Source: Chitinibacter bivalviorum (GTDB lineage: Bacteria; Pseudomonadota; Gammaproteobacteria; Burkholderiales; Chitinibacteraceae). From it: DNA of 64,000 nt. Where the stretch lies: contig NZ_CP058627.1 in the NCBI RefSeq assembly GCF_013403565.1, positions 2,914,001-2,978,000 on the forward strand, in the 5' to 3' direction. The notes beneath the pieces were generated by a model. That model saw only the letters and a program-made list of their open reading frames with translations. It was not told the DNA's origin and did no database searches. The position numbers and the translations under genes were made by a program. Every line of letters starts with the position of its first letter. Position 1 is the stretch's first letter. This document shows positions 11,150-62,631 of this stretch, piece after piece.

Positions 11150-11204
11150 AACATCTCGGCGAATTTGTCCTTCGTACAGTAACCCCGACACGGCTAAGGT
11201 AGGT

Positions 11205-13391
11205 ATGGAGCAAAATAATACAAACACGCAAACCCATGAATTTGGCTGGCATGTTGGGGAAAATCAGGCGCACTTTGATCCCTTGCTCGACTGTTTGGTT
11301 GAGCTAACCCGCCTGCACGGAGAGCCGTGGACCGCGCAAGCGCTTGCTGCGGGTTTGCCGCTGGTCGAAAATCGGCTTAGCCCCTCATTACTGCCGCGTG
11401 CCGCTGCGCGCGCGGGCCTTTCGGCGCGTGTATTGCGCCAATCATTAAATGCACTACCCGAACGACTCTTTCCCACTATTATTTTGTTGCACGGTCAGCG
11501 CGCCTGCGTGGTACTGGAAAAGCTGCCCGATGGCGCTTTCCGCGTGCGGATGCCTGAAACGGGCGAGTCGGTGGAAGTCTTTAGCGCCGCCGAGTTGGAA
11601 GCGCAATACGCCGGGATCGCGATTATTGTTCGCCCGCGCTTTCGCTTTGATTTGCGTACGCCAGAAATGGGCCAGATTCGCGAGCGTCATTGGTTCTGGG
11701 GCGCGATGTGGGATAACTGGCGCATTTATCGCGACGCGCTGATCGCTGCACTGCTGATCAATATTTTCGCCTTGGCCATGCCGCTGTTTTCGATGAATGT
11801 GTACGACCGAGTGGTGCCCAATCATGCGATTGAAACGCTCTGGGTGCTGGCGCTGGGTGCTGGTTTGATCTTGGGCTTTGATTTTGTGCTGCGCACGGCG
11901 CGCGGCTATATCCTCGATGTGGCGTCCAAGCGGATTGATATTTCGCTGTCCAGTTTGATTATGGAGCGGGTGCTGGGCGTAAAAATGAGCGCCAAGCCCG
12001 CATCGGTTGGCTCATTTACCGCCAATTTGCGTGCTTTCGAGTCGGTGCGTGATTTTATTGCTTCGGCGTCGATCACGACGCTGGTCGATTTGCCATTTGT
12101 GCTGATTTTCTTCTTGGTACTGGTCTGGATTTCACCGTGGCTGGTGCTGCCGCCGCTGATTGGTGCTTTGCTGATCGTGCTGTTTTCATGGCTGGCGCAA
12201 GCCAAAATGAATCAATTGGTTGAGCTGACCCAGCGCGCCGCTGCGCAACGCAACGCAACTTTAGTCGAAAGTATGGTCGGGCTGGAAACGATCAAAATCA
12301 TGGGCGCAGAGGGTGAAATGCAGCGCCGCTACGAGCGTGCGACGCGCTTTTTGGCGCAAATTGGTGGCCGCTTGAAACTGCTGTCCACGACGACGGTGAA
12401 TTTTGCGCAGGCCATTTCGCAATTGGTGTCGATCACGATTGTGATTGTTGGCGTGTATTTGCTCGTCGATGGGCAAATTACGATGGGGGGCATTATCGCC
12501 GCTTCCATGTTGGCAGGCCGTGCGATGGCGCCGCTGGGGCAGGTGGCAGGGCTATTGATGCAATATCAAAATGCCAAAACGTCGCTCGGCGCGGTTGAAA
12601 GCCATATGCAATTGCCGATTGAGCGCCCAGCCAATAGCAATTTCCTGCACCGCGATGCCTTCCGTGGCGAAATCGAATTTCGCAATGTGACATTCAAATA
12701 CCCCGATCGGGATGATATTGCGCTCAATAACGTTAGCTTCAAAATGAAAGCGGGCGAACGCGTCGGCGTGATTGGTCGGGTTGGCTCGGGCAAGACCACA
12801 ATCGAAAAACTGATTTTGGGCCTGTATCAGCCTACAGAGGGCGCCGTGCTTATCGATGGGATCGATACCCGTCAGATTGACCCTGCCGAGCTGCGCCGCG
12901 CAGTGGGCTATGTGCCGCAAGACCCGCTGCTGTTTTTTGGCTCCTTAAAGCAAAATATCGCGCTGGGTACGCCCTTTGCCGATGATGCCCAGATTCTGGC
13001 GGCCGCTGAGCTGGCGGGGATTGCCGAATTTGTGAACGCCAATCCGCGCGGTTTTGATATGTCGATTGGTGAGCGTGGTGAATCTTTATCAGGTGGTCAG
13101 CGTCAGGCGGTATCGATTGCGCGTGCGATTTTGAATGACCCGCCGATGTTGATTCTGGATGAGCCAAGTAGTGCGATGGATCATCAAAGCGAAGAGCGAC
13201 TGAAATCACGCTTGCGGACTTATTTGGCAGGAAAAACCATGCTGCTGGTGACGCACCGCACGTCTTTGCTCGAGTTGGTTGACCGACTGATTGTCATCGA
13301 TCAAGGGCAAATTATGGCCGATGGGCCTAAGGCTCAGGTGGTTGAGGCGCTGCAACAGGGTCGAATTGGTAAAGCGGGAGGGGCTGCATAA
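11205..13391 (+). CDS. Type I secretion permease/ATPase, LapB-like
   Basis: This is 728 residues: the inner-membrane ABC exporter of a type I secretion system. The order is a degenerate C39-peptidase-like domain (about 15–145, no convincing catalytic Cys-His pair), a six-helix membrane domain (about 170–450) and an ATPase domain (about 490–715). The ATPase has Walker A GRVGSGKT (about 523–530), signature LSGGQRQ (about 627), Walker B MLILDEP (about 649) and a switch His (VTHRTS). A non-catalytic C39-like domain is usual where the substrate has no cleaved leader, as for RTX adhesins. It overlaps the fusion-protein gene by one base and lies upstream of the giant adhesin, its likely substrate. 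Confidence 0.93.
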   Translation: MEQNNTNTQTHEFGWHVGENQAHFDPLLDCLVELTRLHGEPWTAQALAAGLPLVENRLSPSLLPRAAARAGLSARVLRQSLNALPERLFPTIILLHGQRACVVLEKLPDGAFRVRMPETGESVEVFSAAELEAQYAGIAIIVRPRFRFDLRTPEMGQIRERHWFWGAMWDNWRIYRDALIAALLINIFALAMPLFSMNVYDRVVPNHAIETLWVLALGAGLILGFDFVLRTARGYILDVASKRIDISLSSLIMERVLGVKMSAKPASVGSFTANLRAFESVRDFIASASITTLVDLPFVLIFFLVLVWISPWLVLPPLIGALLIVLFSWLAQAKMNQLVELTQRAAAQRNATLVESMVGLETIKIMGAEGEMQRRYERATRFLAQIGGRLKLLSTTTVNFAQAISQLVSITIVIVGVYLLVDGQITMGGIIAASMLAGRAMAPLGQVAGLLMQYQNAKTSLGAVESHMQLPIERPANSNFLHRDAFRGEIEFRNVTFKYPDRDDIALNNVSFKMKAGERVGVIGRVGSGKTTIEKLILGLYQPTEGAVLIDGIDTRQIDPAELRRAVGYVPQDPLLFFGSLKQNIALGTPFADDAQILAAAELAGIAEFVNANPRGFDMSIGERGESLSGGQRQAVSIARAILNDPPMLILDEPSSAMDHQSEERLKSRLRTYLAGKTMLLVTHRTSLLELVDRLIVIDQGQIMADGPKAQVVEALQQGRIGKAGGAA

Positions 13392-14827
13392 TGCAAGGTC
13401 AACACCGTTTACCGCCTAGCGCCAAACCCAATGTGTTTAAGCGCACCTGGGAAAAGATTAAAGCCAATAGCGACATGATGTTTGATCGCTATATCTTCTT
13501 TGCTGAAGAGCGCGATTTAATCGATGACCGTGATTATATTTCCGATGCCAATCACACGATTGCCGAGCAAAGCCCGCACGGCGCGCGCGTCTTGATTCGC
13601 GCTTCGGCGCTCGCAGTGCTGGTGCTGCTGATTTGGGCCGCGTTTGCGCCGCTGGATGAAGTGACCAAAGGGGAAGGGCGAGTGATTCCTTCGCGCCAAC
13701 TGCAGGTGATCCAGAGTTTGGATGGCGGTAGCGTGCAGGAGATTTTGGTGCGCGAAGGTCAGCAGGTGAAAAAAGGCGATTTGCTGCTGAAAATCGACTC
13801 AACCCGCTTTGTTTCGACGCTCAAAGAAAGCCGTGCGCAGTATTTGTCATTGAAAGCGAAAGCCGCCCGACTGGATGCTTTAGCCAATGGCAAAACCTTC
13901 ACCATGCCCGACGAGGTGCTCAAAGAAGCGCCTAATATCGCGGCTCAAGAGCAAATGCTGTACGAATCGAAGCGTGCCGAGTTGGAAGCGAGCTTGGGCG
14001 TTGCGCGTCAACAACTGAATCAGCGCACGCAAGAGCTCAATGAAATCCGCGCACGGCGCGAGCAAGCGTCGCAAGGCTATGAGCTGACGAAAAAAGAACT
14101 CGATGCCACGCGCCCCTTGCTGAAAAGCGGCGCGGTTTCTGATGTCGAGGTGTTGCGCTTGGAGCGCGATGTCTCGCGTTACCTCGGTGAGCGTGATGGC
14201 GCGAGCGCCCAGATTCCACGCGTGCAGGCCTCGATGGCCGAAGCTAATCGCAAGATTCAGGAAGTGGAGCTGATGTTCCGCAATCAGGCGCGCACCGAGC
14301 TGGCCGAAGCGACGGGCAAATTGGGTTCATTATCCGAGGGCAGCGTTGGTTTGGCGGATCGCGTGAAGCAATCAGAAATTCGTTCGCCCATGAATGGTAC
14401 GGTTAAGCAGCTTTTTGCCAATACTGTGGGTGGCGTGATTCAGCCGGGGAAAGACATTATCGAAATCGTGCCCTCAGGTGAAAGCTTGGTGCTGGAAGTC
14501 AAAGTACAGCCGCGCGATATTGCTTTCCTGCGCGCGCAGCAAGCTGCGACGGTGAAATTCACTGCGTATGATTTTTCGATTTATGGCGGCCTGGATGCCG
14601 AAGTGGTGCAAATCGGTGCCGACACGGTGAAGGATGAAAAGGGTAATTCGTTTTATTTAATCCGCGTTCGTACCAAGGAAGGCTTTTTACATAAAGATGG
14701 TAAACGCTTGCCGATAATCCCAGGCATGGTGGCCGAAGTGGATATTCTAACTGGCAAGAAAACCGTTCTTTCCTATTTGTTGAAACCGGTGTTACGCGCC
14801 AAATCTTCCGCACTGACCGAACGATGA
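13391..14827 (+). CDS. HlyD-family type I secretion membrane fusion protein, LapC-like
   Basis: This is 478 residues with GGGAGGGG ahead of the ATG. A cytoplasmic N-terminus is followed by one membrane segment (about 67–86), a lipoyl-like half motif ([20 protein letters not shown]), a long coiled coil (about 135–305) and a beta-barrel region containing the HlyD-family segment [19 protein letters not shown]. It should bridge the ABC exporter and the TolC-type channel across the periplasm. The start overlaps the exporter stop by one base, and the end overlaps the regulator gene by 4 bases (ATGA), so the three form one operon. Confidence 0.94.
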
Positions 14828-15420
14828 GCTTAGCAATCTATTTAATTGGCAATGATGAGCTGCTGCTCGATTACTGGCAGCAGGGGCTGGCTACGTATCA
14901 TTGCGAGCGAGCAAGCGATTGGTCGCAATTAGCCCCGGGCTCGATTGTGCTGCTCGATTTGGATAGCGCCGCTCTGCCCGCCTGGCAAGATGCGGTTTGG
15001 GCACAACGAACCCGCGACTATATGGTATTGGCAAGTAGCTCGACTCCTGACGATGAGCAGGGGTATGTGGCTCTGCAGTCAGGTTGCAGCGGGTATTGCC
15101 ATGCATACTCCCCATATCCATTGTTGCAACAAATCATCGAGGTCGTTAAATCGGGCGAGATTTGGGCTGGCCGTACTTTGGTGCAGCGTTTACTGGGGGC
15201 GATTAATCGCTTGCCGAGTAAAAATAATCCGCTACTCGGTCTTTCCGAGCGCGAAGCGCAGGTTGCCCGCCTAACCGCGACGGGACTGAGCAATAAGGAA
15301 ATCGCGCGCGAACTTGAGATTACCGAGCGCACCGTCAAGGCGCATTTAACGACAATTTTCGAAAAATTAGCCGTTAGCGATCGCGTGCAACTGGTGCTGC
15401 GCGTGAATGGCTTGGCCTGA
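14824..15420 (+). CDS. LuxR/NarL-type regulator with degenerate receiver
   Basis: This is 198 residues. The C-terminal helix-turn-helix (about 135–198: [22 protein letters not shown], then RTVKAHL) is a clear GerE/LuxR domain. The N-terminal part has receiver-like strands, with aspartates at D45/D47 (VLLDLDS), but the usual acidic pair after strand 1 is only partly present and the conserved Lys position reads YCHAYSP. Phosphorylation is therefore doubtful. It is translationally coupled to the secretion genes and lies directly upstream of the adhesin, whose promoter region holds a palindrome it could bind. Control of the adhesin is inferred from position only. Confidence 0.85.
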
Positions 15421-15460
15421 TTCCCGTTTTCCCTTCACCCCACGCCCATGACATTGGCGT

Positions 15461-15478
15461 ACTGTACTTCAGTACAGT
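15461..15478. promoter_or_regulatory. Perfect palindrome upstream of the adhesin, candidate operator
   Basis: ACTGTACT-TC-AGTACAGT is a perfect 8+2+8 inverted repeat in the 121-base gap between the regulator and the adhesin. Its size suits a dimeric DNA-binding protein such as the LuxR-type regulator just upstream. The binding partner is inference. Confidence 0.5.
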
Positions 15479-15484
15479 CGTATT

Positions 15485-15500
15485 TGTGATCTAGCTCACC
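15485..15500 (+). promoter_or_regulatory. CRP/Vfr-like binding site
   Basis: TGTGA-TCTAGC-TCACC matches the CRP consensus TGTGA-N6-TCACA at 9 of 10 half-site positions with the correct 6-base spacer. It lies 42 bases upstream of the adhesin ATG and overlaps the left arm of the leader hairpin. Depending on the transcription start it could activate or repress. Confidence 0.65.
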
Positions 15501-15540
15501 TACACTCCATTATTAGCAAAATCTAATCTGGAGTGTAGGT
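15498..15540 (+). promoter_or_regulatory. Leader hairpin sequestering the adhesin ribosome site
   Basis: ACCTACACTCCA (15498–15509) pairs perfectly with TGGAGTGTAGGT (15529–15540) across a 19-base loop. The right arm contains the GGAG ribosome site (15530–15533) and ends one base before the ATG at 15542. If transcribed, it would hide the Shine-Dalgarno sequence. No T run follows, so it is not a terminator. Confidence 0.7.
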
Positions 15541-15541
15541 C

Positions 15542-18500
15542 ATGGCTGAAACAATCATCGGTAGCAGCAACAGCGCCAAAGCAATCACCGTCGTGGAAGG
15601 CGAGGCATTTATCCGCGATGCCAGCGGTAAAGTGAGCCCAGTTGCTGCAGGTGATGTGTTGCAAGAAGGCCAGGTGATTTTCACCTCCAGTACCGGCCAT
15701 GTGACCTTGCTCTTGCCTAATGGCCAAGTGCTGGAATTGGGCGCTGATCGCAACTTGCTACTCGATGGCGATGTTACAGCGAGTGCGCCGACGGATCCGA
15801 CCGAAGCCTTGGTGGCTAATGCAGGCAGCAGTGCCGATCAAATCATCAATGCCATCAATGCTGGCAAAGACCTTTCCGAAGAATTAGATGCAACTGCAGC
15901 CGGTTTGAATGCGGGCGCTGGCGGTGAAGATGGTCACGGTTTTGTCCGCTTATTGCGAATTGCCGAAGCCGTCGATCCTGTCAGCTTTGAATTTAAAACC
16001 GAGCTTAACCCAGTTCATGACAGCATCGAACCCGCAGCCAATCCAGCTGCCGTCGTTTTGCTGCCTGAAAACCAGCAGCCTGTTGGACAAAATCAATCAG
16101 CAACGACGCCAGAAGATACGCCAGTTCGCGGCCAAGCCATCGCCCAAGATAGTGATGGCGATGTGCTCAGTTACAGCAAATCGAGCGACCCAGCGCACGG
16201 TACAGTGACTGTCGATGGCAAAGGCGCTTGGGTTTACACGCCGAACAAAGACTTTAATGGTAATGATAGCTTTACGATCTTGGTCGATGACGGCAAGGGC
16301 GGCAAAGACACCATTACCGTCAATGTCGGCGTGACACCGGTGAATGATCCGCCAGTCTTGGTTGATGCCAATGGCCAGCCATTGGGCAACGATATGGCGG
16401 TGAGTACACCCGAAGACACCCCAGTTAGCGGCAAGCTCGACGCCAAAGATCCCGATGGCGATACACTGACATTCAGCAAAACCAGCGACCCAGCCCACGG
16501 TAGTGTCACGGTCGATCCAAACGGCGGCTGGACTTATACGCCAAACAAAGACTACAACGGTCCAGATTCATTCACGGTTTTGGTCGATGATGGCAAAGGC
16601 GGCAAAGACACAATTACCGTCAATGTGGGCGTAACGCCAGTCAACGATCCACCTGTACCGGTTGATCCAAAAGTCCCAGGCGAGAGTTTCGACCCAGCCA
16701 CCGGCAACTACAGCCACACCACGCCAGAAGACACGGCAGTGAGCGGCAAAGTCATCGCCACCGACAAAGACGGCGACACGCTGACGTACACGCTCAACAG
16801 CCAGCCAACGCACGGCACAGTCGTGTTCAAAGCCGACGGCTCGTACACCTACACCCCAAGCGCTGACTACAACGGCAAAGACAGCTTTACCGTTCTGGTT
16901 GACGACGGCCACGGCGGTAAAGTGACCAGTACGGTGAATATCGACGTGACACCGGTTAACGATCCACCTGTTCCAGTTGATCCAAAAGTACCGGGTGAAA
17001 CGTTCGATCCAGCCACCGGCAACTACAGCCACACCACGCCAGAAGACACGGCAGTGAGCGGCAAAGTCATCGCCACCGACAAAGATGGCGACACGCTGAC
17101 GTACACACTGAACAGCCAGCCAACGCACGGCACTGTCGTGTTCAAAGCCGACGGCAGCTACACCTACACGCCAGGCCAAGACTACAACGGCAAAGACAGC
17201 TTTACCGTTCTGGTTGACGATGGCCACGGCGGTAAAGTGACCAGCACGGTCAATATCGACATCACACCAGTCAACGACGCCCCCGATGCGATCAACGACA
17301 CCACCAGCACTGCCATCAATACCCCGGTGGTGAATGTGAACGTACTCGGCAACGACAAAGACGTTGACGGCGATACCCTCACAGTGACCAAAGCAGAACT
17401 CGCTGACACCACCAAAGGTACGGTCACGCTCAACGCCGACGGCACGATCAACTTCACGCCCGCGACCAACGTCACCGGCCCAGTCGTGGTGAACTACACC
17501 ATCAGCGATGGACATGGTGGTACAGATACCGCCCAACTGACGATTAACGTGGGCGCCAACACGCCACCGACTGGCGCAGACAAAACGCTCACGCTGGCAG
17601 AAGATACCAACGTCACCGTTAAAGCCAGCGACTTTGGCTTTAGCGACGCCGACGCAGGTCAAACGCTGTCTGCCGTCCGCATCGACAGCCTGCCAGCCAA
17701 TGGTCAACTGACGCTCAACGGCGCGGCGGTGACAGCCGGTCAGGAAATCAGCGTGCTTGACCTGAACGCCGGCAAACTGGTGTTCACACCTGCTGCCGAC
17801 GCCAATGGTAACAACTACGCCAACTTCACCTTCAGCGTCAAAGACAGCTCAGGTGCGTTTGACACCGTGCCAAACAAAGTGACGTTCGATGTTACGCCAG
17901 TCAACGACACCCCAACACCGGTAGATCCAAAAGTCCCCGGTGAAACGTTCGACCCAGCCTCCGGCAACTACAGCCACACCACGCCAGAAGACACGGCAGT
18001 GAGCGGCAAAGTGACAGCCACCGACAAAGACGGCGACACGCTGACGTACACACTGAACAGCCAGCCAGCACACGGCACCGTCGTATTCAAGGCTGACGGC
18101 AGCTACACCTACACGCCAAGTCAAGACTACAACGGCAAAGACAGCTTCACGGTTCTGGTTGACGACGGCCACGGCGGTAAAGTGACCAGCACGGTCAATA
18201 TCGACGTGACACCAGTCAACGATCCACCTGTACCGGTTGATCCAAAAGTACCTGGTGAGAGTTTCGACCCAGCCACCGGCAACTACAGCCACACCACGCC
18301 AGAAGACACGGCAGTGAGCGGCAAAGTCATCGCCACCGACAAAGACGGCGACACGCTGACGTACACGCTCAACAGCCAGCCAACGCACGGCACAGTCGTG
18401 TTCAAAGCCGACGGCTCGTACACCTACACCCCAAGCGCTGACTACAACGGCAAAGACAGCTTTACCGTTCTGGTTGACGACGGCCACGGCGGTAAAGTGA

Positions 18501-26829: not shown

Positions 26830-28647
26830 ATGATGAAATTGAAACCATTGGTGATGTTCATGATGTTGGCTACGGCACCCCTGTCGTTCGCTGCCACCAC
26901 GATGAAAGATGCCGTAGAGCAAACAGTATTAAAGAATCCCGAAGTGCGTGCCAAATGGCTCAGCTACAAAGCATCAAGCGATGAGCAAGATGTGGCGCGC
27001 AGTAATTACTACCCACGTGTTGATATACAAGCTTTTGCTGGCTATGAAAGACTCGATTCGGCGCAGCCGAATAACTCGGGCAACTCTGGCTTTTCTCATC
27101 CAGGCGCCAGCATTGAATTGCGCCAGATGCTGTTTGACGGCTTTGCAACTCAAACCGAAGTACGCCGTTTGGGCTACGGCAAGTTGACGCGTTATTACGA
27201 ATTACTGGCGGCAAGCGATCAGGCTGCGCTAGAAACCATCAATGCCTATCTCGATGTGCTGCGCTATCGTGAATTGGTGGGGCTGGCGAAAGACAACTAC
27301 GCTGTGCACAAAGAAACTTACGACCAAATTGCTGAGCGCGTTGCTGCCGGTGTCGGCCGCCGCGTTGACTTGGAAACTGCCACGGGCCGTTTGGCATTGG
27401 CCGAATCCAATTGGCTGACGCAAGCTTCCAATTTGCATGACGTCTCTGCGCGCTACGAGCGATTGACCGGTATGCCGCCCGATGTCGAGATGGGTCAACC
27501 GACTGATTTTGGCCCAATGTTGCCGACAAACACAGCCGAGCTAAAAGAGCGTTTACCCGCTAATCCGGCATTTAAGTCGGCGGTTTACAATATTCGCGCT
27601 GCGCGTGCCGATGCTGAAAATAAGAAAAGCGATTACTACCCGCAATTTGAATTCCGCGCGCGTCAAGATGTCGGCAATAATCGTGATGGCATCGACGGCA
27701 CTTACAACGACAGCGTTGTGCAGTTGGTGATGAATTACAACCTGTTCCGTGGTGGCGCAACGACAGCGCGCGCTAGCCAATACGCTCAGCAACTCAATAT
27801 TGCGTATGAAATGCGCGATAAAACTTGCCGCGATATTCGCCAAACGACGCAAATTGCATGGAACGATGTGTCGCGTTTGAAAGAGCAGCTCGGTTACCTC
27901 GATCAGCACGTCCTTTCGACTGAAAAATCGCGTGACGCATTCCGCCGCCAGTTTGATATTGGCCAGCGCTCTTTGCTTGATGTACTCGATACTGAAAACG
28001 AATTATTTGAAGCACGCAATGCACTGGTGCGTGGCGAGTACGATTTCCAACTTTCGCGCGCGCGCGTCTTAGCGCAAACGCATCAACTGCTGGCCGCTTT
28101 GCAATTGTCGCCGCTAGAAAATACCGGCCCGGACGATAATCTGGGTGACAATGTGACCGAGGACGAAAAAATCGCCTGCTCGGGTGTCATGATTGAAAGC
28201 GTAAAGCTCGACCGCGAAGCGGCGATGGCTGCGCGTCCGCCGCGTGCGCCATTGCCAGTACCGGAAGTAAAAGCCGAAACCCCTGCGGGTACCTGCGATA
28301 AAGCGGTCACTGATTTGGTGGCGAACTGGTCGAATGCGTGGTCAGGCAAAATGATGGACACGTATTTGAGCTTCTATAGCGAGAAATTTGAAGCCAGTGG
28401 TGGCCGTAGCCGCGCCGATTGGGAAGCGAAACGTCGTGCGCGAGTGAGCAAAGAAGGCGGCATCACGCTCAAGCTCGACAATCAAACTTGCAAAATGAAT
28501 GGAAAAGATCGCGGTGAAGTGACATTTACCCAAGTCTATACATCTAAAAATTACAGCGACACGGTACAAAAAACGCTGGAATTGCAGCAAGAAAGCGGCA
28601 AATGGAAAATCATTCGTGAGCGCGTAACGAGCGGTCGCACCGAGTAA
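26830..28647 (+). CDS. TolC-family outer-membrane channel with C-terminal SnoaL/NTF2-like domain
   Basis: This is 605 residues, about 150 longer than typical TolC or LapE proteins. A signal peptide (about 1–22) is followed by two outer-membrane-efflux repeats (about 25–440) with features such as AAGVGRRVDLETATGRLALAE and FDIGQRSLLDVLDTENEL. A linker rich in Pro and Ala (about 470–490) leads to an extra domain (about 490–600) whose features (TDLVANWSNAWSGK, FYSEKF, W-K-I-I-RE) fit the SnoaL-like/DUF4440 fold seen at the C-termini of other envelope proteins. It probably completes the type I system for the adhesin. It has its own leader and a strong terminator. Confidence 0.9.
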   Translation: MMKLKPLVMFMMLATAPLSFAATTMKDAVEQTVLKNPEVRAKWLSYKASSDEQDVARSNYYPRVDIQAFAGYERLDSAQPNNSGNSGFSHPGASIELRQMLFDGFATQTEVRRLGYGKLTRYYELLAASDQAALETINAYLDVLRYRELVGLAKDNYAVHKETYDQIAERVAAGVGRRVDLETATGRLALAESNWLTQASNLHDVSARYERLTGMPPDVEMGQPTDFGPMLPTNTAELKERLPANPAFKSAVYNIRAARADAENKKSDYYPQFEFRARQDVGNNRDGIDGTYNDSVVQLVMNYNLFRGGATTARASQYAQQLNIAYEMRDKTCRDIRQTTQIAWNDVSRLKEQLGYLDQHVLSTEKSRDAFRRQFDIGQRSLLDVLDTENELFEARNALVRGEYDFQLSRARVLAQTHQLLAALQLSPLENTGPDDNLGDNVTEDEKIACSGVMIESVKLDREAAMAARPPRAPLPVPEVKAETPAGTCDKAVTDLVANWSNAWSGKMMDTYLSFYSEKFEASGGRSRADWEAKRRARVSKEGGITLKLDNQTCKMNGKDRGEVTFTQVYTSKNYSDTVQKTLELQQESGKWKIIRERVTSGRTE

Positions 28648-56900: not shown

Positions 56901-57085
56901 TGTTCAGATAACGTGTTGATAACAAGAATCGTAGGGTGGGTTAGCCCCTTAGGGCGTAACCCACCGTGACGCGACATAAAGAAAAGCAGCGTAACGGTGG
57001 GTTACGGCTTAGCCTAACCCACCCTACGAATATCGTTTTTCCTAGTCAAACCAAGTTCTGTTCATATCAACACATAATCTGAACA
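56901..57085 (+). mobile_element. MITE-like element, copy 1 (185 bp)
   Basis: Terminal inverted repeats: TGTTCAGATAACGTGTTGAT at the left faces ATCAACACATAATCTGAACA at the right. An inner palindrome is built from CGTAGGGTGGGTTA and TAACCCACC blocks. There is no coding capacity. By eye it matches the reverse complement of 62447–62631 at 184 of 185 positions. It sits between oppF and a strong hairpin terminator, so it may have inserted inside the 3' end of that transcription unit. Confidence 0.8.
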
Positions 57086-62446: not shown

Positions 62447-62631
62447 TGTTCAGATTATGTGTTGATATGAACAAAACTTGGTTTGACTAGGAAAAACGAT
62501 ATTCGTAGGGTGGGTTAGGCTAAGCCGTAACCCACCGTTACGCTGCTTTTCTTTATGTCGCGTCACGGTGGGTTACGCCCTAAGGGGCTAACCCACCCTA
62601 CGATTCTTGTTATCAACACGTTATCTGAACA
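62447..62631 (-). mobile_element. MITE-like element, copy 2 (185 bp, inverted relative to copy 1)
   Basis: By eye this differs from the reverse complement of 56901–57085 at a single base. It has the same terminal inverted repeats (TGTTCAGAT and ATCTGAACA). It encodes nothing. With copy 1 it brackets about 5.4 kb carrying six genes. Confidence 0.8.

Follow-up and report, generated by a model that had tools for sequence, protein, structure and literature searches.

A gene for a LapA-type adhesin of 3261 residues in Chitinibacter bivalviorum is preceded by a perfect 12-bp inverted repeat whose right arm contains the ribosome binding site and whose left arm holds a -10-like hexamer that, judging by relatives, would belong to a conserved promoter with a linked regulator. 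We suggest that the repeat serves as a gate at the transcription start site, with a regulator-activated promoter inside the left arm and a stem that silences only read-through messages; this is the reading towards which we lean, if only slightly. The features of the sequence that speak for it are the repeat, an upstream palindrome, a fixed spacing of 24 nt between palindrome and hexamer, the co-occurrence of the regulator, and the reappearance of this arrangement in a small number of lineages. A promoter inside the left arm, with the repeat as a gate against read-through, is better supported than a lock that acts on the native adhesin message. The promoter signature, which together with its regulator extends through the order, is a firmer and perhaps more useful finding than the read-through lock.

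The adhesin locus and its inverted repeat

The adhesin gene follows genes for a type I secretion ATPase, an adaptor and a regulator in the window, by which we mean the whole stretch of 64,000 nucleotides that was analysed (Table 1). At its N-terminus the protein matches the LapA retention module NF033682 with 101.4 bits (cut-off 50), and at its C-terminus the T1SS signal TIGR03661 with 54.6 bits (cut-off 17.6). This signal and the nearby matches to TIGR03375, TIGR01843 and TIGR01844 supply the type I secretion context of a LapA-type adhesin. The best NCBIfam model for the regulator is CsgD, at 56.9 bits against a cut-off of 250, so that it is CsgD-like only. Elsewhere in the genome, a 2121-codon open frame contains a second, weaker match to the retention module with 32% identity (L011, G000:C1:3403001-3403372).

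Table 1. Features of the adhesin locus, with positions in the window and the basis for each.
Feature	Position	Strand	Basis or remark
Type I secretion ATPase gene, first of the same-strand upstream genes	11205..13391	+	TIGR03375, 986.8 bits (cut-off 693.1)
HlyD-type adaptor gene, overlaps next gene	13391..14827	+	TIGR01843, 414.8 bits (cut-off 208.65)
CsgD/NarL-like regulator gene (LuxR-type HTH), proposed activator	14824..15420	+	PF00196, 71.5 bits
Palindrome ACTGTACTTCAGTACAGT, putative operator for the activator, centre near -43	15461..15478	.	conserved in family and order
Left arm of 12-bp inverted repeat, ACCTACACTCCA	15498-15509	+	sequence
Proposed -10 box TACACT, inside left arm	15501..15506	+	TAnnnT 24 nt past palindrome in relatives
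Predicted transcription start, give or take a few bases	15512	+	inferred: purine, 6 nt past -10 box
Weak inner stem ATTAG/CTAAT, formable at 5' end of native mRNA	15512..15527	+	folding, p 0.10 at this locus
Right arm, TGGAGTGTAGGT	15529-15540	+	sequence; GGAG at 15530-15533
LapA-type adhesin gene, 3261 aa	15542..25327	+	ORF list, profile search
TolC gene	26830-28647		TIGR01844

The hairpin itself is as originally predicted: ACCTACACTCCA and TGGAGTGTAGGT are perfectly complementary over 12 bp with 19 nt between them, the right arm contains GGAG, and the ATG of the adhesin gene lies one base past its end. As RNA, the stretch 15440-15600 folds with -55.2 kcal/mol (z -5.09), which none of 200 shuffles equals. 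Opening positions -14 to -5 of the adhesin gene costs 18.3 kcal/mol, making this the most occluded ribosome site (rank 1) among 40 window genes chosen by the analyst from the ORF list; the runner-up takes 12.1 kcal/mol and the median is 4.0. A perfect repeat of this length is no rarity here: 11 perfect inverted repeats in the window reach 12 bp or more with a loop of 3-30 nt, against 0-1 in each of 12 Markov simulations, and what is unusual about the adhesin repeat is its position. Several of the others look terminator-like. Two stretches, 56955-57006 and 62526-62577, carry the same inverted repeat CGTAACCCACCGT with a 26-nt loop, in opposite orientation and with similar flanks, and represent a dispersed repeat.

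A conserved promoter signature with a linked regulator

The original prediction mentions neither the -10-like hexamer within the left arm nor the palindrome upstream of it. Among the compared genomes of the family, which we take to be the Chitinibacteraceae, 34 of 43 carry the adhesin N-terminus. The palindrome, in the general form TGTACTTNNGTACA, stands upstream of their LapA-type adhesin genes and is kept while its surroundings vary. It is followed at exactly 24 nt by TAnnnT in 42 of the 44 family loci, and any other offset from 0 to 49 accounts for at most 9. Across these loci, the palindrome, the few bases that follow it and TA...T have high information content; it is low in the intervening sequence and upstream. 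To obtain the sample, 45 of 59 places, those with E up to 1.6e-25, were kept and 14 weaker ones left out; one of the 45, L063 in genome G007, was not anchored, leaving 44. At L063, TGTACTTCCGTACAAT lies upstream, and TAAGCT follows 24 nt further on when counted by eye.

The signature extends outside the family, where 44 loci were compared (40 of 42 places, plus four named loci; of the two places left out, one is at a contig edge and one among the weakest). With a promoter matrix built from 39 distinct family segments, the best match in each of these 44 adhesin leaders has a p value of 0.01-0.04 against 100 mononucleotide shuffles, and seven matches are weak (score below 8). When the -10 was left out of the matrix, TAnnnT still lay at 24 nt in 32 of the 44 loci and at 25 nt in four more. 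Taking both sets together, the palindrome is 60-72 nt from the start codon in 78 of 88 loci. Within the genus, CTGTACTTNNGTACAG occurs once each in five of six genomes, always just upstream of the adhesin. The sequence TGTACNNNNGTACA is found at three places in the window's genome, and TAnnnT at 24 nt is missing from the other two. These two sites (G000:C1:1650056, L067, and 3231208, L095) have the flanks ccggaa and tgaggattttgag in common.

Class II activators sit near -43. If the hexamer is taken as a -10 box, the palindrome is centred near -43 and transcription would start about 6 nt past the hexamer, near A15512. We regard the case for a promoter as strong, with the palindrome as putative activator operator and TAnnnT as its -10 box. 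A start downstream of 15509, which the original prediction had set against its own reading, is thereby predicted from comparison of the relatives.

The regulator accompanies the adhesin closely. It occurs in all 34 adhesin-bearing genomes of the family and in none of the nine others; in the order, it occurs in 48 of 48 adhesin-bearing genomes and in 5 of the 351 others (399 genomes, regulator E up to 1e-25, adhesin E up to 1e-12, lists compared by eye). Its gene lies upstream on the same strand in 27 of the 44 family loci, for which 0.9-1.4 kb was read, and likewise in all four named loci outside the family. It is also within 1.5 kb upstream in 17 of 20 outside-family loci; these 20 of 40 were selected to span strong and weak stems. 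We infer that this CsgD/NarL-like regulator binds the palindrome.

Other assignments were considered for the same stretch. The palindrome fits what we take to be the LexA motif, CTGT-N8-ACAG, and TGTGATCTAGCTCACC at 15485-15500, which overlaps the left arm, resembles a CRP site as we understand that motif. Neither was adopted: relatives often have a TTGT...ACAA-like palindrome, and the CRP-like site is not conserved at that position. At L006, in another species, a CRP-like TGTGATCTAGGACAC, similar to TGTGATCTAGCTCACC, stands just upstream of the palindrome. The right half of the palindrome was itself considered as a -10 box and dropped once TAnnnT at 24 nt emerged. A near-palindrome, TGTCCTTCGTACAGT, at 11166-11180, about 25 nt upstream of the gene for the secretion ATPase, was set aside as well, being absent from the other five genomes of the genus at up to one mismatch. 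In L061 and L062 the palindrome is apparently split or duplicated, with the anchoring right half about 22-25 nt further on than usual, and in L126, L131, L133 and L136, as in the upstream stretches L140-L143, two tandem palindrome-like sites precede the adhesin.

Native and read-through RNA

Since the -10 box lies inside the left arm and places the start near 15512, the native mRNA probably lacks this arm. The difference for the ribosome site is large: opening it takes 18.4 kcal/mol in read-through RNA and 2.1 kcal/mol in a native RNA starting near 15512. The burial of the ribosome site claimed in the original prediction thus holds for RNA with both arms and would fail for the native RNA. In the size of this difference the locus is second among 88 loci, 17 of which show no gain in read-through RNA. 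The upstream genes are on the same strand as the adhesin gene with no convincing terminator between them; from 15421 to 15497, the only terminator-like pattern is the palindrome (7 bp, two overlapping hits, 1.2 expected).

We propose that transcription of the adhesin gene starts between the two arms of the inverted repeat. An activator, which is probably the CsgD/NarL-like product of the gene just upstream, would bind the palindrome at about -43, the place otherwise taken by a -35 box, and switch on the promoter whose -10 box TACACT sits in the left arm. The native mRNA would then begin near A15512, without the left arm and with an open ribosome site; it may form the weak inner stem ATTAG/CTAAT, which would leave GGAG open. 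Read-through transcripts from the secretion and regulator genes would contain the left arm as well as the right and form the 12-bp stem, which would keep the 9.8-kb adhesin gene from being translated from such RNA. Translation of the adhesin would in this way depend on the activity of its dedicated promoter, an arrangement found in phage T4 gene e.

According to excerpts of PMC3014915, longer transcripts of T4 gene e fold and lysozyme synthesis is reduced about 100-fold, while transcripts from late promoters do not include the 5' strand and are translated well; soc, 49 and I-TevI are named alongside it for ribosome-site hairpins with a late promoter in the 5' strand. The adhesin locus is alike in that the ribosome site lies inside the stem in an upstream-derived transcript, at the 18.4 kcal/mol given above, and in that the conserved -10 sequence lies in the 5' strand, so that short transcripts would likewise lack this strand. 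T4 gene e differs as a phage gene with late promoters, for which the effect and the 5' ends were measured (PMC3014915, same excerpts). The adhesin locus, in contrast, is on a bacterial chromosome, has an activator-type promoter and is a prediction from sequence. The transposase genes of IS10 and IS50 are protected by fold-back from outside transcripts. Here too, read-through RNA would be untranslatable and the gene's own transcript translated, but IS10 and IS50 are mobile elements, with the inverted repeat at the element's end.

As to the regulator, excerpts of PMC3510237 describe how the P. aeruginosa response regulator PprB activates bapA, a large T1SS adhesin gene, and mention CsgD and bapA in Salmonella. 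The pairing of a response regulator with a large T1SS adhesin gene is the same as here, where CsgD is the nearest NCBIfam model; the regulator here differs in scoring well under the CsgD cut-off and in frequently being encoded next to the adhesin gene. The excerpts of PMC3510237 yielded no binding consensus. For P. putida lapA, part of PMC5612765 reports eight mapped 5' ends, one of them 27 bp before the start codon, and a promoter region with many promoters under Fis control. This gene also encodes a LapA adhesin, and the 27 bp are close to the leader length predicted here; the many Fis-controlled promoters are a difference, and the word hairpin is absent from the text of PMC5612765. Among the papers listed by the literature searches, titles and abstract openings contained nothing on this operator or on a promoter inside the ribosome-site hairpin of an adhesin gene.

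Control of LapA after its synthesis is well studied and its transcription less so (PMC5612765, in part). With a compact signature of its promoter and a linked regulator gene accompanying it through the order, the adhesin is open to direct tests of its transcriptional control. Should the read-through lock prove real, a start-site gate of the T4 type also works at a chromosomal biofilm gene, and the secretion machinery and its 3261-residue substrate stay uncoupled until the right signal. The locus also counsels caution: the promoter should be placed before a ribosome-site hairpin is called a translational lock.

Recurrence of the stem and other explanations

It is unlikely, though by no means negligible, that the promoter has been read correctly and the 12-bp stem is a functionless by-product. 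A -10 box of the type TAnACTCC inherently pairs in part with GGAGT, and the rest of the match could have been supplied in this species by chance or through template-switch (quasipalindrome) correction. We compared the block from palindrome to predicted start with the 24 nt before the start codon, against dinucleotide shuffles, in 63 representatives to which the 88 loci were reduced by leader similarity. Ten of the 63 pair better than the shuffles at p<=0.05, and four do so at p<=0.01; two upstream control blocks each give 3 and 1. Stems of at least 8 bp occur in five representatives against 0.4 expected (1 and 0 in the control blocks), and stems of at least 10 bp in three against 0.043 expected (none in the control blocks), namely L002, the present locus, with 12 bp, L126 with 11 and L134 with 18. 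The stems of L126 and L134 are unrelated in sequence to that of the adhesin locus, so the layout arose more than once. This, and the first rank of the adhesin ribosome site among the window genes, speaks against a by-product.

On the other side, most loci are without a strong stem and the full 12 bp are found in this species only; the stem is absent from L006, L007, L016 and L054. In L054 the regulator gene lies 25-31 nt upstream of the palindrome's end and yet there is no stem, so that stem strength is not cleanly predicted by upstream context. In the three closest genera, one pairing register has 124 of 180 cells paired, compared with 45-87 in slid registers (L007 and L054, 2 of 17, were left out, both lacking the stem), and both-sided changes are present at 6 of 12 columns, while the paired core is mostly constant sequence. 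The compensatory changes to which the original prediction had looked give a weak signal that depends on this locus: exchange of partners between species in one register has p 0.04, and 0.22 without this locus, with relatedness ignored. Scored by duplex energy in two genera, again ignoring relatedness, the exchange gives p 0.005, and 0.04 without this locus; for genus g9, p is 0.33. The left arm of L015 even pairs better with the right arms of other species than with its own (-14.0 vs -8.8). Covariation of the arms is weak. As partner exchange is cheap, the conserved part is in large measure the natural match between TAnACTCC and GGAGT, and the outer half may have a neutral origin.

The group of L126, L131, L133 and L136 has its left arm just upstream of the hexamer, which is TACAAC rather than TAnnnT and lies in the loop; its 11-bp stem leads into TTTT just ahead of the ATG. 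TTTT likewise follows the G+C-rich stem of L134 just ahead of the ATG. Termination would in these groups be an alternative route to the same end. It is conceivable, if somewhat short of probable, that several lineages independently wrapped the shared regulator-operator promoter in an inverted repeat, so that the transcript of the secretion system is mute, by burial of the ribosome site or by termination, and the activated promoter alone gives translatable RNA.

We consider it improbable that transcription of the native mRNA begins upstream of 15498, so that the message includes the hairpin and a protein, a small RNA or temperature has to open it; this is the lock that the original prediction had envisaged. 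The stem is stable and covers GGAG, and the 5' ends of P. putida lapA, 27 to 597 bp upstream in the available part of PMC5612765, would allow for an additional upstream start. However, the conserved -10 box sits inside the left arm, the predicted start near 15512 excludes this arm from the native message, and a consensus scan of 15421-15541 found no sigma-70-type promoter. An Rfam search of the whole window at gathering score gave no family match, which speaks against a known RNA thermometer or riboswitch and leaves room for an undescribed one. The right arm has one 11-mer match outside the hairpin and no further copy of the kind that a small RNA might carry. Still less probable is a role of the repeat as DNA, for instance as operator for a dimeric protein, or as terminator of upstream transcription: the G+C-rich stems with TTTT of the L126 group and L134 resemble intrinsic terminators, but the stem in the window is followed by CATGG without a T run, and its arms vary among relatives, unlike an operator and unlike the constant upstream palindrome.

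Returning to the start-site gate, general folding of the leaders is not specific to it. With loci reduced to 56 by leader similarity and leaders shorter than 75 nt, the read-through leader folds at p<=0.05 in 15 of 56, and the upstream control block, also in excess, in 9 of 56. The stretch between the -10 box and the ribosome site has a weak folding excess only (8 of 56, KS 0.07). In L047-L049, from Rhodoferax and Curvibacter, the leader past the -10 box can form a 5' stem, AGCTGAT/ATTAGCT in L047 (fold p 0.055) and AGCGGAT/ATTCGCT in L048, a double change by eye.
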